From positions 1 to 64,000 of the IMG/VR virus record IMGVR_UViG_3300025917_000016: 64,000 nt of DNA; one strand, 5' to 3'. Source of the DNA: a virus. How positions within the stretch are numbered: position 1 is the first letter of the stretch; the number at the start of each line of letters is the position of its first letter. The notes under the pieces were generated by a model. That model was not told the origin of the DNA, made no database searches, and saw only the letters and a program-made list of their open reading frames with translations. This document shows, piece after piece, positions 8,664 through 61,834 of this stretch. The position numbers were made by a program, and so were the translations under genes.

Positions 8664-8830
8664 CCTTCGGAAGTTTCGAGCGGATCGGAAGCGCTAAGTG
8701 CTTGATTTATATACCTTCTTCTATTCTTCTATTATTATCTATTATTTATATAGAAAAAAATAAGAAGATAAGAAGAATAGGTATATAAATAGAGTTTCCA
8801 GTAAATGGAAGGAAGAATGGAAGACCGTGC
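8664..8830. repeat. AT-rich quasi-palindromic element, copy 1
   Basis: A non-coding block in otherwise GC-rich DNA. GGAAG cores occur at 8669 and 8687, then TTGATTTATATAC, a pyrimidine run of TTC/TTCT, TTTATATAGAAAA, a matching purine run, TATATAAATAGAGTTT, and TGGAAG copies at 8806 and 8818. The arms on either side of the centre are imperfect inverted repeats. A second copy in the same orientation lies at 42441-42606. A weak hairpin (8690-8704) just after the giant gene's stop may also act as its terminator. Confidence 0.75.
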
Positions 8831-18448: not shown

Positions 18449-19246
18449 TCAGCGACGCGCAGCCGGTTTGGCCGGGGTGCGGCCGCGGGCCTTCGGCGGC
18501 GCCGGGGTCGCATAGCTCGACACATCCGGTTCCTGGGTGATGCGTTCCAGCGCTTCGGTGCGGCGAGCCCAGTGGACTTCCACGTTCTCGTTCGGTTGCG
18601 GATCGCCGAAACGCAGCGACGGATAGTCGACGTTCGGGTCCATCGTGATCGTGGTCACGACGCCGACCGGCAGTACGCCAAACTTCGCGGCGACCGACTT
18701 GACATAACCGTCGAACGACTTCAGGCCCGTGGGCGACACGTCCAGCACGAACAGCGGCGTGTCGGCGTCGGCGTCAAGCGGCAGCACGGCCAGGCGGCGC
18801 ATGTTCTTGCATGCCTTGCCGTTGCCGCTCGATCCGAACTGGTTCATCGGGCAGGTGGCGCAGGCGTCCGACTGCTTGACCGGCGAATTGTCGCTCGGGA
18901 CCATCTGGCTGATGACCTGGCCGATGGCGAAGCAGGCCGGCGGCTGGATGTTGTCCTTGTCGTAGGCGCCTTCATAGAAGTTATTCGTCGCGATGAAGTC
19001 GACGATCACGACTTCCAGCTCGTTCACTTTGGTGCCGTCCGGCAGGTTGAACGTCTTGTCGTTCTTCAGCTGAATCTTGTCACCGCCGGCCGGCGCGGTG
19101 CGGTCGCCCAGCGCAGCCAGCTCGGCAGCCATCTGGTCCTTGATCGACACCAGCGCACCGCCGGTTGCTTTGCCTTTGACTGCGACGGCGGTGCCGGGTT
19201 TGGCGGTGGCTTTGGCCGGAGTTGCTGCGGGTTTGCGAGTTGCCAT
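18449..19246 (-). CDS. conserved replication-associated protein, possible ssDNA-binding protein (265 aa)
   Basis: The protein has basic Ala/Lys/Pro tails on both ends and a conserved core. The core holds NNFYEGAYDKDN, PPACFAIG and SDACATCPMNQFG, and a third cysteine follows in KACKNMRR. This Cys pattern and core recur in many phages close to DNA polymerase genes. The pattern suggests a metal-stabilised fold. I infer an ssDNA-binding or replication accessory role from the position near the polymerase; that is not shown by the sequence itself. The start has an AAGGA site. Confidence 0.65.
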   Translation of the reverse strand: MATRKPAATPAKATAKPGTAVAVKGKATGGALVSIKDQMAAELAALGDRTAPAGGDKIQLKNDKTFNLPDGTKVNELEVVIVDFIATNNFYEGAYDKDNIQPPACFAIGQVISQMVPSDNSPVKQSDACATCPMNQFGSSGNGKACKNMRRLAVLPLDADADTPLFVLDVSPTGLKSFDGYVKSVAAKFGVLPVGVVTTITMDPNVDYPSLRFGDPQPNENVEVHWARRTEALERITQEPDVSSYATPAPPKARGRTPAKPAARR

Positions 19247-19316
19247 GTTTGTTCCTTGTGGATTTAACGGGTTTTGATATACCGACGCCTCACGGCGGTG
19301 AGCGGTACGTCGCAGA

Positions 19317-32975: not shown

Positions 32976-34163
32976 TCAGGCCAGGAGATGCGAATGCTTC
33001 ACGGCGAACTGCTGCCATTCACGCGTGCTGGTGAACTCGCGGCTGTATGCGAGGGCGTCCTTGTGGAACAGGATCTGCCATTCCGGGTCCATGCGGTCGA
33101 TGTACTTCTTCAGGCGCGGATAGATGTCCTTCGTATTGGCGCGCGCCAGCGAACCGATGATGCCGAACTTGGCCGAGATGTTCGTCGGGACCGCCGTACC
33201 GTCCGGATCAAGCTTCACCTGCTCGACACTCGGTAAGTCCTGCCACATGCCCAGGTACGCCACGTACTCGGATGCCTCGGCCGCGCCGACGGTGCCCTGC
33301 ATCATGGCCAGGCGCACTGCCGGATCGAGACCGGCGTTCGTGAGCTGGCCGCAGAACACCCAGGACCGCGGATTCGGCGACACGCGGCGCGACGGGTCGA
33401 ACTTGTGCAGCAGGTCCGACTTGAAGCGGATGAACGACAGCAGCTCGACCGGCACCTCGTCCGCATGCTCCAGCGCCCATGCGCACCAGTCGTCAGCGCT
33501 CGGCATCATGTCGATGTGGACGAGGCGCAGGGCCAGTGCGGCCGGCATGCGCTGCGCGTTCGAGCGGTCGGTCTCACGGTTGCCGGCGCCCAGCATGGCC
33601 CAGCCGTCCGGCAGCGTGTAACCGCCGACCTTGCGGGTCAGCAGCAGCTGGTACGCAGCGGCCTGCACCATCGGCGGCGCCTGATTCAGCTCGTCCAGGA
33701 ACAGGATGCCCTGCGAGTCGTTCGGCACGCGGCGCACTTCGACCGTCTCGGTCGGCTTGACCTTGGACTTGTACAGCGTGCCGTCTTCGTAGAAGAAATC
33801 GCCGTCTTCACCCTTGGACAGCTCGGTGCCGGTCTTGTCGGTGTAGACCGTCACTTCCTTCTCGATCATCATGTGCGGCAGGAAGTCGGCCGGCAGCCAC
33901 TCCATGTGGCCGTGGTCGACGTTCGGCACCGGGAAGCCCTTGATGTCGGTCGGGTCCATCAGGTTCAGGCGGACGTCGCGCAGCTCCATGCCGCGCTTCT
34001 TGGCGATGTCGGCGACCAGATCCGACTTGCCAATCCCAGGCGGGCCCCAGACAAAGCCGGGGCGTTTCAGTTCGACCAGCGTTTCGAGGGCCGAACGAAC
34101 CTGGCTCGGGCTGAGGTGGGCGGCGGTGATGCCGGCTGCTGCGGGCGTGGTGTCTTGGAACAT
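32976..34163 (-). CDS. MoxR-like AAA+ ATPase
   Basis: Walker A is GPPGIGKS (40-47), Walker B GILFLDELN (D157, E158), and the sensor region is MLGAGNRETD. Residues 105-145 form an inserted beta-rich arm typical of some phage MoxR proteins. MoxR ATPases work with VWA-domain partners as chaperone-like remodelling machines; such a partner lies downstream at 28392-29528, and DUF3150 lies between. The 395-residue protein begins this gene group. Confidence 0.9.
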   Translation of the reverse strand: MFQDTTPAAAGITAAHLSPSQVRSALETLVELKRPGFVWGPPGIGKSDLVADIAKKRGMELRDVRLNLMDPTDIKGFPVPNVDHGHMEWLPADFLPHMMIEKEVTVYTDKTGTELSKGEDGDFFYEDGTLYKSKVKPTETVEVRRVPNDSQGILFLDELNQAPPMVQAAAYQLLLTRKVGGYTLPDGWAMLGAGNRETDRSNAQRMPAALALRLVHIDMMPSADDWCAWALEHADEVPVELLSFIRFKSDLLHKFDPSRRVSPNPRSWVFCGQLTNAGLDPAVRLAMMQGTVGAAEASEYVAYLGMWQDLPSVEQVKLDPDGTAVPTNISAKFGIIGSLARANTKDIYPRLKKYIDRMDPEWQILFHKDALAYSREFTSTREWQQFAVKHSHLLA

Positions 34164-39674: not shown

Positions 39675-39889
39675 TCCTTCCTCGCTTCCTGGGCCTTCGT
39701 GATCTGCACGCGGTCGTAGATGATTCGTGCTTCGAGCAGGACGAAGACCAGGCTCACGAGCGCCACGATTGCGTAGTCTCCGAAGAAATGGTAAGACAAC
39801 TTAACTGCACCGAACAGGCTGGCCAGGAAGACGCAGACGAGGAATAGGCTGCCCAGTTCGGATGCGATAACCTTCAGGATGAGTTTCAT
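39671..39889 (-). CDS. small two-helix membrane protein (72 aa)
   Basis: Two hydrophobic helices (about residues 10-33 and 38-58) and a basic tail. It is coupled to the primase gene stop upstream and to the HTH gene downstream. Function unknown. Confidence 0.6.
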   Translation of the reverse strand: MKLILKVIASELGSLFLVCVFLASLFGAVKLSYHFFGDYAIVALVSLVFVLLEARIIYDRVQITKAQEARKE

Positions 39890-42255
39890 TTCCTTCCTCC
39901 CGCCACCGCGCGCAGTGCGCCTTTCTTCGGCTGCACGGCCGGTGGCTCGATGATGGCACGCAGGTCATCGAGCGCCTGCGCATCGCCCTGCCACGTGGTC
40001 TTGATGCCCTGCACCGCGCGGCCATCAACCCAGACCTTCGTCATGTGGATGCGGTGGTGCTTGAGCATCGACGTGAACTTGTTCGGCGTGTCCGGCAGGT
40101 TGCCCACCGTGTAGCCGAACAGGACGGCCAGCTCGTCGCGCGAGATGTTGCACTGGCCCGGATGGCTTACCGGCGCGGCCTTGGTGCGGTCGACCAGGCG
40201 CAGCAGCACCTCCTGGTAATCGGCGACCTTCGAGGCTTTGAGCGCGTTGCGCTTGTAGCTGTCGTCGTTCGGCAGCTGGTCGACGAAGAACTCCAGGTCG
40301 CCGCTCAGGACACGCGATACCGCGACGTCGATGGAAGTTTCGCTGATGCCGATCAAGGTGCGGCGGTCTTCGGTGTCGAGCACCGTGGCAGCGCGGGCGA
40401 TGTCGGCCTTATACGTCATCAGGAAATCGTGGAACGTCTGCAGCTCGTTCTTGATCTTGGTCATCTCCTTCTCGCCCATGACCAGGCGCTGCGGCTGGAA
40501 GCCACCGATGTTGTAGCGCCGGTCGCGCGCGGTGATCACGATCGGCTCGGGCATGTTCGAGCCGAAGATCCAGTTGCCGAAGTTGGCCACATCGCGCGAG
40601 CCCTGGTGCATGGCCCGGATCGGGATGGTCGGCTCAGAGATGAAGTTCCTCAGCTTGGCGGCGACGCCGCGCTCGTTGTCCAATGCCTTAGCTTCGATCT
40701 CGTCGATGAAGATCACGAACTTGTTCTCCATCCAGTGGTTGAAGTGCTCGTTCAGCTCGTCCATGTGGCGCATGACCGTGTGACGTTCACCTAACAGCGG
40801 CCGGATGATCTTGTGCATGATCGTGCCCTTGCCGGTGCCCTCGGTGCCGTGCAGGACCCAGGCCGTGAGCGTGCGCTGCTTGAACTGCATGATACAGGCC
40901 AGCCAGTTGATGAAGTGGTCGACGACCTTGGGATCGCCGCCGAGCGCGTGGTGGATGACCTTCGAGATCATCGTCGGCATCGTGGTGATGCGCTTGACCT
41001 TCGTCTTGGCGAAGCGCGTGGCTTCGTACAGGTTGACTTTGCGGTTGGTGACGTCGACACGCGGCGTGCCGGGCGCCGCGTGCGGGTCGAATACCAGATC
41101 CCACTCGGGGATAAAGTCGCCCAGCGGCACGCCATGCTGCTTGGCGAAGTGACGCACCTGGGTCTCGTTCTTGGCCGCGTTGATCTCAAGCACGTCCGTG
41201 CTGGCATCGTAGGTGCCACGGTAATAGGTGCTGGTGATGCGGTCGAGGAACGTGAGGTAGGTGACGCCGCCGCTGGTAGTCTTGACCGACTGCTGCGTGA
41301 TCTGTTCCCAGTACTCGGGCAGCAGCTCCTTTGTGAGGTAGGTCGGCTCGCCCTTGAAATTGAAGATGAAGTCCGGATTGTTCTCCGGGTGGTAATAAGC
41401 CCAGGAGTCGCCGCCGTTCAGGTTGAAGTACACGAAGCCGCGGTCGACCTTGACATCGCTGATCGTGGCGCTATCGGGCTTGACCATGATCTGCGTGGAG
41501 CCGAGCATCTTGTACGTGAATTTACGCGCCGGGATACCGGATGCTTCGCGCAGCTCGTTGATGCGCTTGTCAGTCTTGACCTTGTTGGTTTCGGTCGACG
41601 GGATCAGGCTTGGCATCGTGAGTTTGGCGGCCGGCTTGCCGACGTACACGATGCGGGCTTTCTTCGCCATCGGGTCCTTGAGGCCGCTTTTCAGAAGCGG
41701 TGGCGCGATGTAGATCAGTTTGTCGTTCTGGCAGGCGGTGATGTCTAGTGCCCAGCTGATCGAGTTCGCCGTCTTGGTCAGCGTCATGGCGTTGCGCAGC
41801 ATGTCGACCTTGTGGTTCAGGTCGATGAGCCATTGCTTCAGCAGCGGCGCTGCCATGGGTTTGGCCAGCTGCATGAACACGTGCGCGCGCAGGTGGTTGT
41901 TCTCGATGCCGTAGCTCGCGGAGTACTGTACCACGTACGAGACGTTGTCCAGGCCAACAGCTGTGAGGAACTGCTCGACATTCGAGATGTTCGGCAGTCC
42001 GTCCAGGTCCAGCACGATCCACTCGGTCTGCCCGTTGGAGTCGGTGCTGCCCTTTCGCGACTCACGCACCAGGGGCCGATTGATGTCGCCCTTGAGCAGC
42101 GTGTGCCCTTGAGCTGCATGTTTTTTAAGCAGCGCCTCGAAATCCTTCAGATCCTTGCAACCCTCTTCAATGGACGTGAATTCGTATGCGTTGGGATAGG
42201 GGTGCTTCTCGATGGTCCCGTCAGCGCGACGGACGTACGTTTTCGTGAGAGGCAT
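39886..42255 (-). CDS. primase-polymerase/helicase (AEP-like + DUF5906 helicase)
   Basis: I chose the ATG at 42255 because AGAGG lies five bases upstream; an earlier ATG at 42282 is possible. The N-terminal domain has WIVLDLDG (D83, D85) followed by a NNHLRAHVF segment, like the archaeo-eukaryotic primase fold. The C half is a superfamily 3/D5-type helicase with HGTEGTGKG (K476) and FVIFIDEIE (D518, E519), then GSNMPEP. It should prime and unwind DNA at the fork and is the only replicative helicase-primase seen. Confidence 0.85.
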   Translation of the reverse strand: MPLTKTYVRRADGTIEKHPYPNAYEFTSIEEGCKDLKDFEALLKKHAAQGHTLLKGDINRPLVRESRKGSTDSNGQTEWIVLDLDGLPNISNVEQFLTAVGLDNVSYVVQYSASYGIENNHLRAHVFMQLAKPMAAPLLKQWLIDLNHKVDMLRNAMTLTKTANSISWALDITACQNDKLIYIAPPLLKSGLKDPMAKKARIVYVGKPAAKLTMPSLIPSTETNKVKTDKRINELREASGIPARKFTYKMLGSTQIMVKPDSATISDVKVDRGFVYFNLNGGDSWAYYHPENNPDFIFNFKGEPTYLTKELLPEYWEQITQQSVKTTSGGVTYLTFLDRITSTYYRGTYDASTDVLEINAAKNETQVRHFAKQHGVPLGDFIPEWDLVFDPHAAPGTPRVDVTNRKVNLYEATRFAKTKVKRITTMPTMISKVIHHALGGDPKVVDHFINWLACIMQFKQRTLTAWVLHGTEGTGKGTIMHKIIRPLLGERHTVMRHMDELNEHFNHWMENKFVIFIDEIEAKALDNERGVAAKLRNFISEPTIPIRAMHQGSRDVANFGNWIFGSNMPEPIVITARDRRYNIGGFQPQRLVMGEKEMTKIKNELQTFHDFLMTYKADIARAATVLDTEDRRTLIGISETSIDVAVSRVLSGDLEFFVDQLPNDDSYKRNALKASKVADYQEVLLRLVDRTKAAPVSHPGQCNISRDELAVLFGYTVGNLPDTPNKFTSMLKHHRIHMTKVWVDGRAVQGIKTTWQGDAQALDDLRAIIEPPAVQPKKGALRAVAGGRK

Positions 42256-42404
42256 CGGGGCCTCTAAAAACACCAGTTTCATAGGGAGATCGTCCTGTTT
42301 TTGTAGTCGTGGAGGGCGGCGTACAGCAGAGTCATCATAGCGATTCCGACGCCCTCCTTCCATAGTGCAAATGTAAAATTCAGGAATTTACTCCGACACG
42401 TTTC

Positions 42405-42450
42405 CCTTCCAAAATCGGTTTTTTCACGAAAAAAGGCCGATTTTGGAAGG
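42405..42450. other. long perfect hairpin
   Basis: A 14-bp perfect inverted repeat CCTTCCAAAATCGG / CCGATTTTGGAAGG (42405-42418 and 42437-42450) continues inward with TTTTTT / AAAAAA around a CACG loop, with two unpaired G. The structure is symmetric enough to act on both strands, as a terminator or protein-binding site. Confidence 0.8.
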
Positions 42451-42606
42451 AGATTGGAAGACCTAAGTATTTGATTTATATACTCTTTTCTTCTTTTCTT
42501 CTATTCTTCCAAAATTTATTTATTTATATAGAAAATAGAAGAAAAGAAGGTATAAAAAAAGAGTTATATATAGAGTTTGTTGCGATTGGAAGCCGAAGTT
42601 TGGAAG
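42441..42606. repeat. AT-rich quasi-palindromic element, copy 2
   Basis: Same order and orientation as copy 1 at 8664-8830. It has TGGAAG at 42444 and 42455, then TTGATTTATATAC, a TTCT-rich pyrimidine run, TTTATATAGAAAA, a GAAGAAAAG purine run, TATATATAGAGTTT, and TGGAAG at 42587 and 42601. The first 30 bases match copy 1 with few changes. It lies upstream of the primase/helicase gene. Confidence 0.75.
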
Positions 42607-42651: not shown

Positions 42652-42687
42652 AAAAACGGCCGCCAGCGCGTGTGCGCCGACGGCCGT
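42652..42687 (-). terminator. intrinsic terminator
   Basis: On the minus strand, ACGGCCG / CGGCCGT enclose an inner GCGC/GCGC stem and are followed by five T. It overlaps the region just beyond the stop of the 330-residue gene. Confidence 0.75.
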
Positions 42688-42703: not shown

Positions 42704-43696
42704 TCACTTCGTTGCTTCTTCCGGCCGCGGTGCGCGACGCATGCTGCCCTTCGCGGATTGTGCTTGCGTCGTCGGCGCAGTTTCGCTCGTGCTCGTGTTC
42801 GTGTTCGCTTCGGTGCCGACGATCGTGCGGTCTTCGAGTTCCGGCAGCACGCCGCCACGTTCGAGGTAGGCATCGAGTTGCACGCGCTTGACCTTGCTGA
42901 AAGTGGTCAGCCATGCGACCAGTGATTCGCGGTTCGCCTTCAGCATCTTGCTGTCGCCGGCTGCATCGAGCTTGCCGCGCAGCAGAGCCATCAGCGCTTT
43001 CTGCACAGCCTTGTCGTGTGCGCGGATCGCAGCGGACATCAGCTTGTACTGCACGTGTGCCGGCAGTGTGTCGAACATCGATTCGATCGAGATTTCGTCT
43101 TCGTCGCACACCGGCACCTGCTTGCCGCCTTCGTCTTTTGCATACGTCTCGAACGCTTCGAGATAGGTGATGACCTTGCCTGCGTTGGCCTTGAGATCAG
43201 CCGTATCGTCGGTAACCATCTTGAGCTGCGCAGCCTTGAGCATTTCCGGATCAACGTCGACGGCGAGTGCCAGCGCTTCGATCATGTCGTCGTTGTTCTG
43301 CGAGGGACGCGTCAGCTGGAACTTGACGGTCTCGGCGATCGACAGCGGCACGTCGTTCTGTGTAGCCTGATGCTGTGCCAGGAACGCTGCGAAGTAATTG
43401 CGCAGACGCATGAAGTTCTCGGCCAGTTCACCAGACTGCATCTGGACTTCGAACCCCATGCCGTCTGCGACTGTGGTGTTGCGGAAGTTGGCTTCCTCGA
43501 CTGCGTTCTGTGCGTCGTTGTACTCGTCGATGGTGGGAACGTCTTTGCGATCGGCGATGTTCTCGATGGCGTTGTAGCGGAGGTGACCGCGCGCGTATGC
43601 GATAGCTGTTGCGTTCAGCGAGCCAATGATCGACTTGACGATTTGCTTGGACACGTTGAGCGGCAGGTTGTGATGAATGGTGGTGATCGATTGCAT
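42704..43696 (-). CDS. hypothetical early protein (330 aa)
   Basis: A mainly helical, soluble protein. A compact N domain (residues 1-130) and an acidic middle with VCDEDEISIESMFDTLP are followed by a helical region. The Ser/Thr/Ala-rich tail ends with basic residues. It has a GGAG ribosome site and its own terminator, so it is probably made in quantity. The position just upstream of the AT-rich element and primase suggests a DNA-related role, but I recognise no family. Confidence 0.65.
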   Translation of the reverse strand: MQSITTIHHNLPLNVSKQIVKSIIGSLNATAIAYARGHLRYNAIENIADRKDVPTIDEYNDAQNAVEEANFRNTTVADGMGFEVQMQSGELAENFMRLRNYFAAFLAQHQATQNDVPLSIAETVKFQLTRPSQNNDDMIEALALAVDVDPEMLKAAQLKMVTDDTADLKANAGKVITYLEAFETYAKDEGGKQVPVCDEDEISIESMFDTLPAHVQYKLMSAAIRAHDKAVQKALMALLRGKLDAAGDSKMLKANRESLVAWLTTFSKVKRVQLDAYLERGGVLPELEDRTIVGTEANTNTSTSETAPTTQAQSAKGSMRRAPRPEEATK

Positions 43697-61325: not shown

Positions 61326-61834
61326 ATGACGGCATCGAGAAAGGACTGATGGTACTCCTGCTGCTCGTGATCGCGGCCGTGCTGGGCAGCGTACTGATGC
61401 ACGCGCACATGGCCGCTGAGATGGACCAGCAGGCCGCCCAGTTCGAGAAGATCCTGCAGCAATCGAAAGACGCGAAGGCCGCCGCGGAACAGCGTGCCAC
61501 CAACATCGAGAACGCGCAAAAAGGCGTCATCGACAATGCCGTCGCAACCTACAAGGCCAACAATGCAATTGACAAAGCCCGTGATGCCGCTGTTATTGCT
61601 GATCTGCGCAACGATGTTACAAGGCTGCGCGTCCGCACCAACCGTCCCGCCGCCTGTGGTGGCCAAGTGCCCGACGCCGCAGCCAGTACCAGCGGACCTG
61701 CTGACGCCGGAGACGAAACTCTCGCCGGACCAGTTGCAGCGCGACTTGCTGGACGGTACGCCGACTACAACCGCATCGTTGAAAAACTGACCGCCTGCCA
61801 GGCCATCGTCAAAGCCGACCGCATGCTCGACTGA
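61322..61834 (+). CDS. Rz: Rz-like inner-membrane spanin subunit
   Basis: The ATG at 61322 overlaps the stop of the holin-like gene. A single N-terminal membrane helix (residues about 8-27) is followed by a long charged coiled coil (QFEKILQQSKDAKAAAEQRA). This is the layout of the inner-membrane spanin. A lipoprotein gene is nested inside in another frame, which strongly supports the identification. Spanins disrupt the outer membrane at lysis. Confidence 0.8.
   Translation: MNDGIEKGLMVLLLLVIAAVLGSVLMHAHMAAEMDQQAAQFEKILQQSKDAKAAAEQRATNIENAQKGVIDNAVATYKANNAIDKARDAAVIADLRNDVTRLRVRTNRPAACGGQVPDAAASTSGPADAGDETLAGPVAARLAGRYADYNRIVEKLTACQAIVKADRMLD
61563..61790 (+). CDS. Rz1: Rz1-like outer-membrane lipoprotein spanin, nested in Rz
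   Basis: A 75-residue product beginning MQLTKPVMPLLLLICATMLQGC; LQGC is the lipobox and Cys22 the lipidation site. The mature part is Pro-rich, as in Rz1 proteins. It lies wholly inside the Rz gene in another reading frame, the classical embedded arrangement. It forms a complex with Rz across the periplasm. Confidence 0.8.
   Translation: MQLTKPVMPLLLLICATMLQGCASAPTVPPPVVAKCPTPQPVPADLLTPETKLSPDQLQRDLLDGTPTTTASLKN

Follow-up and report, generated by a model that had tools for sequence, protein, structure and literature searches.

Bacillus phage SPP1 offers the closest described parallel to a phage genome with two origin-like sites. Its theta replication starts at oriL, and initiator bound at oriR has been proposed to stall replication forks and to trigger concatemer synthesis. 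The two sites are similarly organised, each with direct repeats and an AT-rich unwinding element; one is located at the replication genes, the other within the late region, and both are bound by a single initiator, gp38 (PMC6316719, PMC3485210). They lie 12-13 kb apart, oriL being inside gene 38, and SPP1 divides the work between a separate initiator, loader and helicase and the host primase. In the SaPI Rep/ori and SCCmec Cch2 systems, initiator helicases recognise origin iterons by their C-terminal domain, Cch2 requiring the 5-nt iteron AAGTG (PMC7581432). Here a single origin lies downstream of the rep gene, on a genomic island, and there is no second copy. P4 needs, in addition to its origin, a further site, crr, which carries the origin repeats as well. 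Its alpha protein alone binds the origin repeats by a winged helix, unwinds and primes, the last with a Toprim primase (PMC4234260). The genome of NrS-1, which encodes a PrimPol-helicase, holds two copies of the 8-nt recognition sequence of that protein (PMC7102993).

For KPP25-like phages, the papers that we found describe no replication origin. Here we analyse a 64-kb stretch of DNA (hereafter the window), which forms part of a 66.6-kb phage record. The source phage is distantly related to Pseudomonas phage KPP25, and its primase-helicase (825 residues) is 42% identical to the protein of KPP25 and its relatives. The window carries a pair of elements, A and B, that is real, old and functional-looking; judged by sequence and by analogy, it would be an SPP1-like pair of iteron origins with a PrimPol/SF3 initiator resembling those of NrS-1 and SaPI5.

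Two homologous AT-rich elements in the window

Element A (8664..8830, plus strand) is 81% AT and consists of an AT-rich core with flanking GGAAG iterons. Exact searches placed the left GGAAG iterons at 8669..8691 (sites 8669 and 8687) and the right TGGAAG/GGAAG iterons at 8806..8823 (sites 8807, 8811 and 8819), all on the plus strand; the conserved box CTAAGTGCTTGATTTATATAC, whose family form on the other strand is AAATCAANNACTTAG, occupies 8694..8714 (plus strand). Element B (42405..42606, plus strand) combines iterons and an AT-rich core with an inverted repeat, CCTTCCAAAATCGG...CCGATTTTGGAAGG, which holds two facing iterons (42405..42450) and is also found in the relative G001. Exact search gave GGAAG sites at 42445, 42456, 42588 and 42602, the last two within the right TGGAAG iterons (42587..42606, plus strand), and the conserved box CTAAGTATTTGATTTATATAC lies at 42463..42483 (plus strand). 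The first-pass annotation was right that a homologous element is present here but drew it too short: the true left edge is near 42405, at the 20-bp inverted repeat with GGAAG/CTTCC. The TTC-rich pyrimidine run that it described does exist, but read on the minus strand it is a tandem iteron array of TTTTGGAAGAATAGAAGAAAAGAAGAAAAGAG with a period of 8-9 (42483..42514), laid out in the same way in relatives.

The shared order of parts claimed for the two elements was borne out. Exactly two occurrences each of CTAAGT, TTGATTTATATAC and TTTATATAGAAAA are present in the 64 kb, one in A and one in B, and by sequence and exact search the parts of A and B follow the same order in the same orientation; AGAGTTT is present in both copies and has one further, reversed occurrence at 61716. 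Also as proposed, no other DNA in the window is as AT-rich as the two elements, with 100-bp windows at 42468 (82%) and 8706 (81%) against a mean of 37%; the next AT-richest (62%) borders element B. Their homology is equally clear: a blastn search of the whole record with B returned A (73% identity over 141 bp, E = 1.8e-17), and the A-B alignment reached z = 35 relative to dinucleotide shuffles. Both elements had in addition been called quasi-palindromes, and they fold far better than shuffled sequences (z = -6.1 and -4.5). This hairpin, strong in the window pair, is however absent from the relatives G016 and G006 (z = -1.2 and -1.0); because it is not kept, we rejected it as the functional core and do not count it as an essential feature.

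The two locations given by the first-pass annotation hold. Element A starts at the stop codon of a 2174-residue virion protein (PHROG 'virion structural protein'), at the convergent junction of late (plus-strand) and early (minus-strand) genes, and element B sits upstream of the primase-helicase gene, between that gene and a minus-strand terminator (42656-42687). The interval from A to B encodes a DNA ligase, a family-A DNA polymerase, a thymidylate synthase and a helicase. A promoter/terminator scan found one terminator before element B and another after element A, and nothing notable inside either element. GC skew is not flat, and in many genomes it turns near both elements; since transcription also switches strand there, the skew cannot decide origin activity. 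Directly upstream of element B, a 330-residue protein is encoded (42704-43696, minus strand) that is without an assigned family and has no match in phage records.

The pair recurs in relatives and changes in concert

A nucleotide search of the phage collection with element A gave no matches, and relatives were therefore found through the primase. Scans of IMG/VR, bacterial genomes and phage records located the primase on more than 100 contigs, and more than 25 relatives' records were read whole or nearly whole. Most of 82 loci have an AT-rich island at most 900 bp upstream of the primase, eight being without one at the threshold used. Searching these relatives for the pair, we found a second copy in 15 records, nearly always directly after the gene for the giant virion protein, and thus two like sites near replication and late genes, as in SPP1. 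A homologous second copy is present in the window, G001, G003, G004, G007, G008, G009, G010, G012, G014, G016, G017, G025 and KPP25; in G011 it is cut by the contig end. The position of element A is the same in G001, G003, G004, G007, G009, G012, G016, G017 and KPP25, and the KPP25 pair is also found in phiR18, YMC17/07/R4900a and CRPAP1904. The circular relative G006 has element B only, its second copy being absent. The two copies lie 25-43 kb apart, or 0.38-0.62 of the record, a spread that rules out a spacing of exactly half a genome as a rule. In KPP25, the primase gene is 12 kb from element B, whereas the two are adjacent in the window's group; there (NC_024123, 26.4 kb and 38.8 kb) it is the element, and not the primase gene, that has stayed close to where the early block begins.

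Across relatives, the architecture of the element is conserved while its sequence changes. The kept layout begins with inverted iterons, a CTATATAGG-like box and a pyrimidine run, and continues with two to four tandem iterons spaced at 7-11 bp, a AAATCAANNACTTAG or TCATAGG box and further iterons. The iteron itself varies by phage: GGAAG in the window and several others, ATAAG/GTAAG, AGAAC/GGAAC, or GTRAC, that of KPP25 being TTCGTRACA. Within a record, however, the two copies always share the iteron class (15/15 records), and the A-B alignment score has a median of 61 within a genome versus 21 for same-position copies of different genomes; the copies of G016 are 91% identical over 170 bp. In most pair-bearing genomes, the two elements outrank all other iteron clusters of the record. 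The pair is old, and its two copies change in concert within a genome.

A stem-loop with the loop TCATTTTTA was considered as a common feature and rejected, as it stands beside some elements only. In several relatives, a small stem-loop with a variable stem and the constant loop CATTTTTA lies beside the element (G016 at 19023 and 45009, G012 at 33516, G006 at 43433, G009 at 19257 and G003 at 42894).

A primase-helicase with an SF3 core and a predicted C-terminal winged helix

The gene next to element B (39886..42363, minus strand) encodes the 825-residue primase-helicase, in which AEP-type motifs, an SF3 helicase and a C-terminal winged helix follow one another. The helicase part matches Pfam DUF5906 (residues 504-616, E = 3e-19). 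Residues D119, D121, H161 and D207 are invariant, and from these motifs we read the N-terminus as a putative AEP-type (PrimPol-type) primase. The protein would in this way join an SF3 core to a primase-type N-terminus, as SF3 primase-helicase initiators do, its primase part being recognised by motifs. In Foldseek searches with the whole protein, the NrS-1 PrimPol helicase region came first (6k9c, E = 5.8e-27, TMt 0.78), followed by the poxvirus D5/E5 and SaPI5 primase-helicases; no structural match specific to the N-terminal part was isolated. The winged-helix domain (residues 695-805; 39949..40281, minus strand) was predicted by AlphaFold2 with a pLDDT of 92; searched alone against the PDB, it gave weak, mostly winged-helix matches, none of them significant (best E = 0.13).

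These features separate the phage from each described system. Its protein unites primase, SF3 helicase and winged helix, unlike the divided machinery of SPP1, and we found an SF3 primase-helicase as the protein that co-varies with the repeats (see below) rather than a gp38-type initiator with a DnaB-type helicase and loader. Neither mark of the P4 alpha family was recovered: the primase-helicase has no Toprim match, and the P4 alpha origin-binding domain falls outside the top 50 structural matches of the winged-helix domain. NrS-1 is the best match of the helicase part in both structure and sequence, but its recognition sequence is much shorter than the elements described here, both copies lie at the genome centre, and no iteron/AT-rich pair has been described for it. 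SaPI5 shares a structurally matching primase-helicase; no common sequence family with the SaPI/SCCmec proteins was shown in this analysis.

The helicase part of the G014 primase-helicase (L065:10001-13216) is lengthened by some 270 inserted residues, for which a Pfam search gave an intein-splicing match narrowly short of the curated cutoff (E = 1.7e-8). L081/L371 has a match of similar length.

Iteron identity tracks two residues of the wing

The surprising part of this analysis is a co-variation of two residues with two bases. K776 and W778 (codons at 40030..40038, minus strand) lie, in the AlphaFold2 model, on the first wing strand, directly after a recognition helix (PNKFTSxLKHH) that is nearly constant among relatives. 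We called the iteron class of each locus from DNA alone, using the largest tandem chain and counts, and obtained 48 calls. Residue 776 was K or R with G at iteron base 2 in 26 cases and with T in 2, whilst other residues occurred with T in 20 cases and with G in none (p = 1e-11). Residue 778 was W with G at base 5 in 30 cases and with C in none, other residues being paired with C in 16 and with G in 2 (p = 7e-11). Read as a code, K or R at 776 goes with G at base 2 and any other residue with T; W at 778 goes with G at base 5, and R or K with C. The four iteron classes fill this 2 x 2 code, with exceptions in L081 (foremost, R with GTAAG), L107, L109 and L116. The iteron of a phage thus goes with the residues that its primase-helicase has at two positions of the wing.

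Both positions were initially spotted by eye, and every column of the 825-residue protein was later scanned by mutual information. Column 776 ranked first for base 2 (0.78; next 0.48) and column 778 first for base 5 (0.73; next 0.33), a ranking unchanged after rows more than 80% identical were dropped. The iteron caller underwent a single revision, ahead of the held-out test described below: the first caller, composition-corrected and stricter, under-called the AT-rich TAAG class and gave 20:0/0:13 for base 5 and a weaker 24:1/2:6 for base 2. The chemistry appears sensible, with K/R beside G, small or hydrophobic residues beside T, and R/K where the opposite strand has G. The binders first suggested for the elements, the 330-residue protein and a separate HTH protein, find no support here, as it is the primase-helicase that co-varies with the iterons, through two residues of its wing.

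The elements as candidate origins

Taken together, we consider it likely that A and B are paired origin-type elements at which an initiator binds, and that this initiator is the PrimPol/SF3 helicase encoded by the phage itself. Short repeats flank an AT-rich, easily melted segment in both, as in iteron origins, and the best reading of these repeats is as predicted initiator sites, a reading based on the co-variation and the predicted winged helix. Among the three roles that the first-pass annotation had put forward (replication origin, recombination site, regulator-binding site), it is the first that these data support. Following the models for P4 alpha (PMC4234260) and for SaPI Rep and Cch2 (PMC7581432), the C-terminal winged helix would bind the iterons to the left and right of the AT-rich core, an SF3 ring would be loaded onto the melted core and begin unwinding, and the N-terminal AEP (PrimPol-type) domain would prime for the phage family-A polymerase. 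Element B, present in nearly all relatives, is probably the main origin. For element A, often but not always present, we propose a role as a second origin or, by analogy with SPP1 oriR, as a fork-arrest site aiding the switch to concatemer synthesis.

One version of this explanation, compatible with it, restricts origin function to B and makes A an initiator site that does not fire, acting in fork arrest, titration or handcuffing. The SPP1 oriR, proposed to arrest forks, is a precedent (PMC3485210, PMC6316719), and B is nearly universal where A is optional. On the other hand, A keeps the full origin layout, AT-rich core included, and evolves in concert with B; we hold this version tentatively, as somewhat less than an even prospect. 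Far less probable is a role for the elements as operators or promoters by which the primase-helicase or another regulator controls early and late transcription, with no part in starting replication. Rep proteins commonly autoregulate at iterons, and B does lie directly upstream of the primase gene. A, however, stands where convergent genes meet and precedes no gene, the promoter scan found no sigma-70-like promoter in B and a single weak 9/12 match in A, and in KPP25 element B does not adjoin the primase gene; we regard such a role as unlikely.

It is very unlikely, moreover, that the association of residues with iterons reflects shared ancestry instead of binding specificity. Related rows do share both traits, and the supported independent phylogenetic contrasts are few (5-7). 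Yet on a tree built without the C-terminus these contrasts agree with the code in 5/5 and 5-6/7 cases, with none opposite, and two residues two positions apart top a whole-protein scan for two different bases. Sister lineages also switch. L050 (R, GGAAG) and L052 (Y, GTAAG) share 87% identity and the same recognition helix, and the class has switched at both copies of the element in the genomes concerned (G008 and G010); L088 (R778, GAAC) and L097 (W778, GGAAG) form another such pair, and further switches of class and residue separate L037 from L111/L112 and mark L064 within a TAAG clade. Among held-out new contigs, 7 of 9 distinct callable classes were fully predicted. The two misses with the frozen caller, L232 and L282, both fit the code by eye, which is a weaker statement; L283, with S at 778, had no prior prediction and was kept out of the nine. 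Least credible of all are site-specific recombination, resolution or parS-like partition sites, for although two homologous copies lie roughly half a genome apart, their relative orientation is not fixed (same in 9 pairs, inverted in 5), which disfavours the recombination role first suggested, the co-varying protein is a primase-helicase and not a recombinase, and no ParA/ParB family was found among the early proteins scanned, a subset of the ORFs.

Preferring, then, origin-type elements read by the primase-helicase, we give even chances to a fuller proposal: that these phages have two distant origins whose iterons stay matched to one another and to a code of two residues in the wing, that specificity is readable from the protein, and that it has switched repeatedly through the wing and both sites. 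If true, the origin specificity of KPP25-like phages could be read from the primase-helicase sequence. The family is a natural experiment in the joint change of specificity of initiator and origin, in which closely related sister phages belong to different classes and a switch has to involve both sites of a genome simultaneously. How initiator and origin co-evolve, and what a second origin is for in a phage, can thereby be tested directly in isolated Pseudomonas phages.

KPP25-like primase-helicases also occur in bacterial contigs (L111-L121) assigned to Herminiimonas, Janthinobacterium, Variovorax, Uliginosibacterium and Allochromatium, several of them sharing the iteron classes described above; these may be prophages, or contigs of phages within the assemblies.
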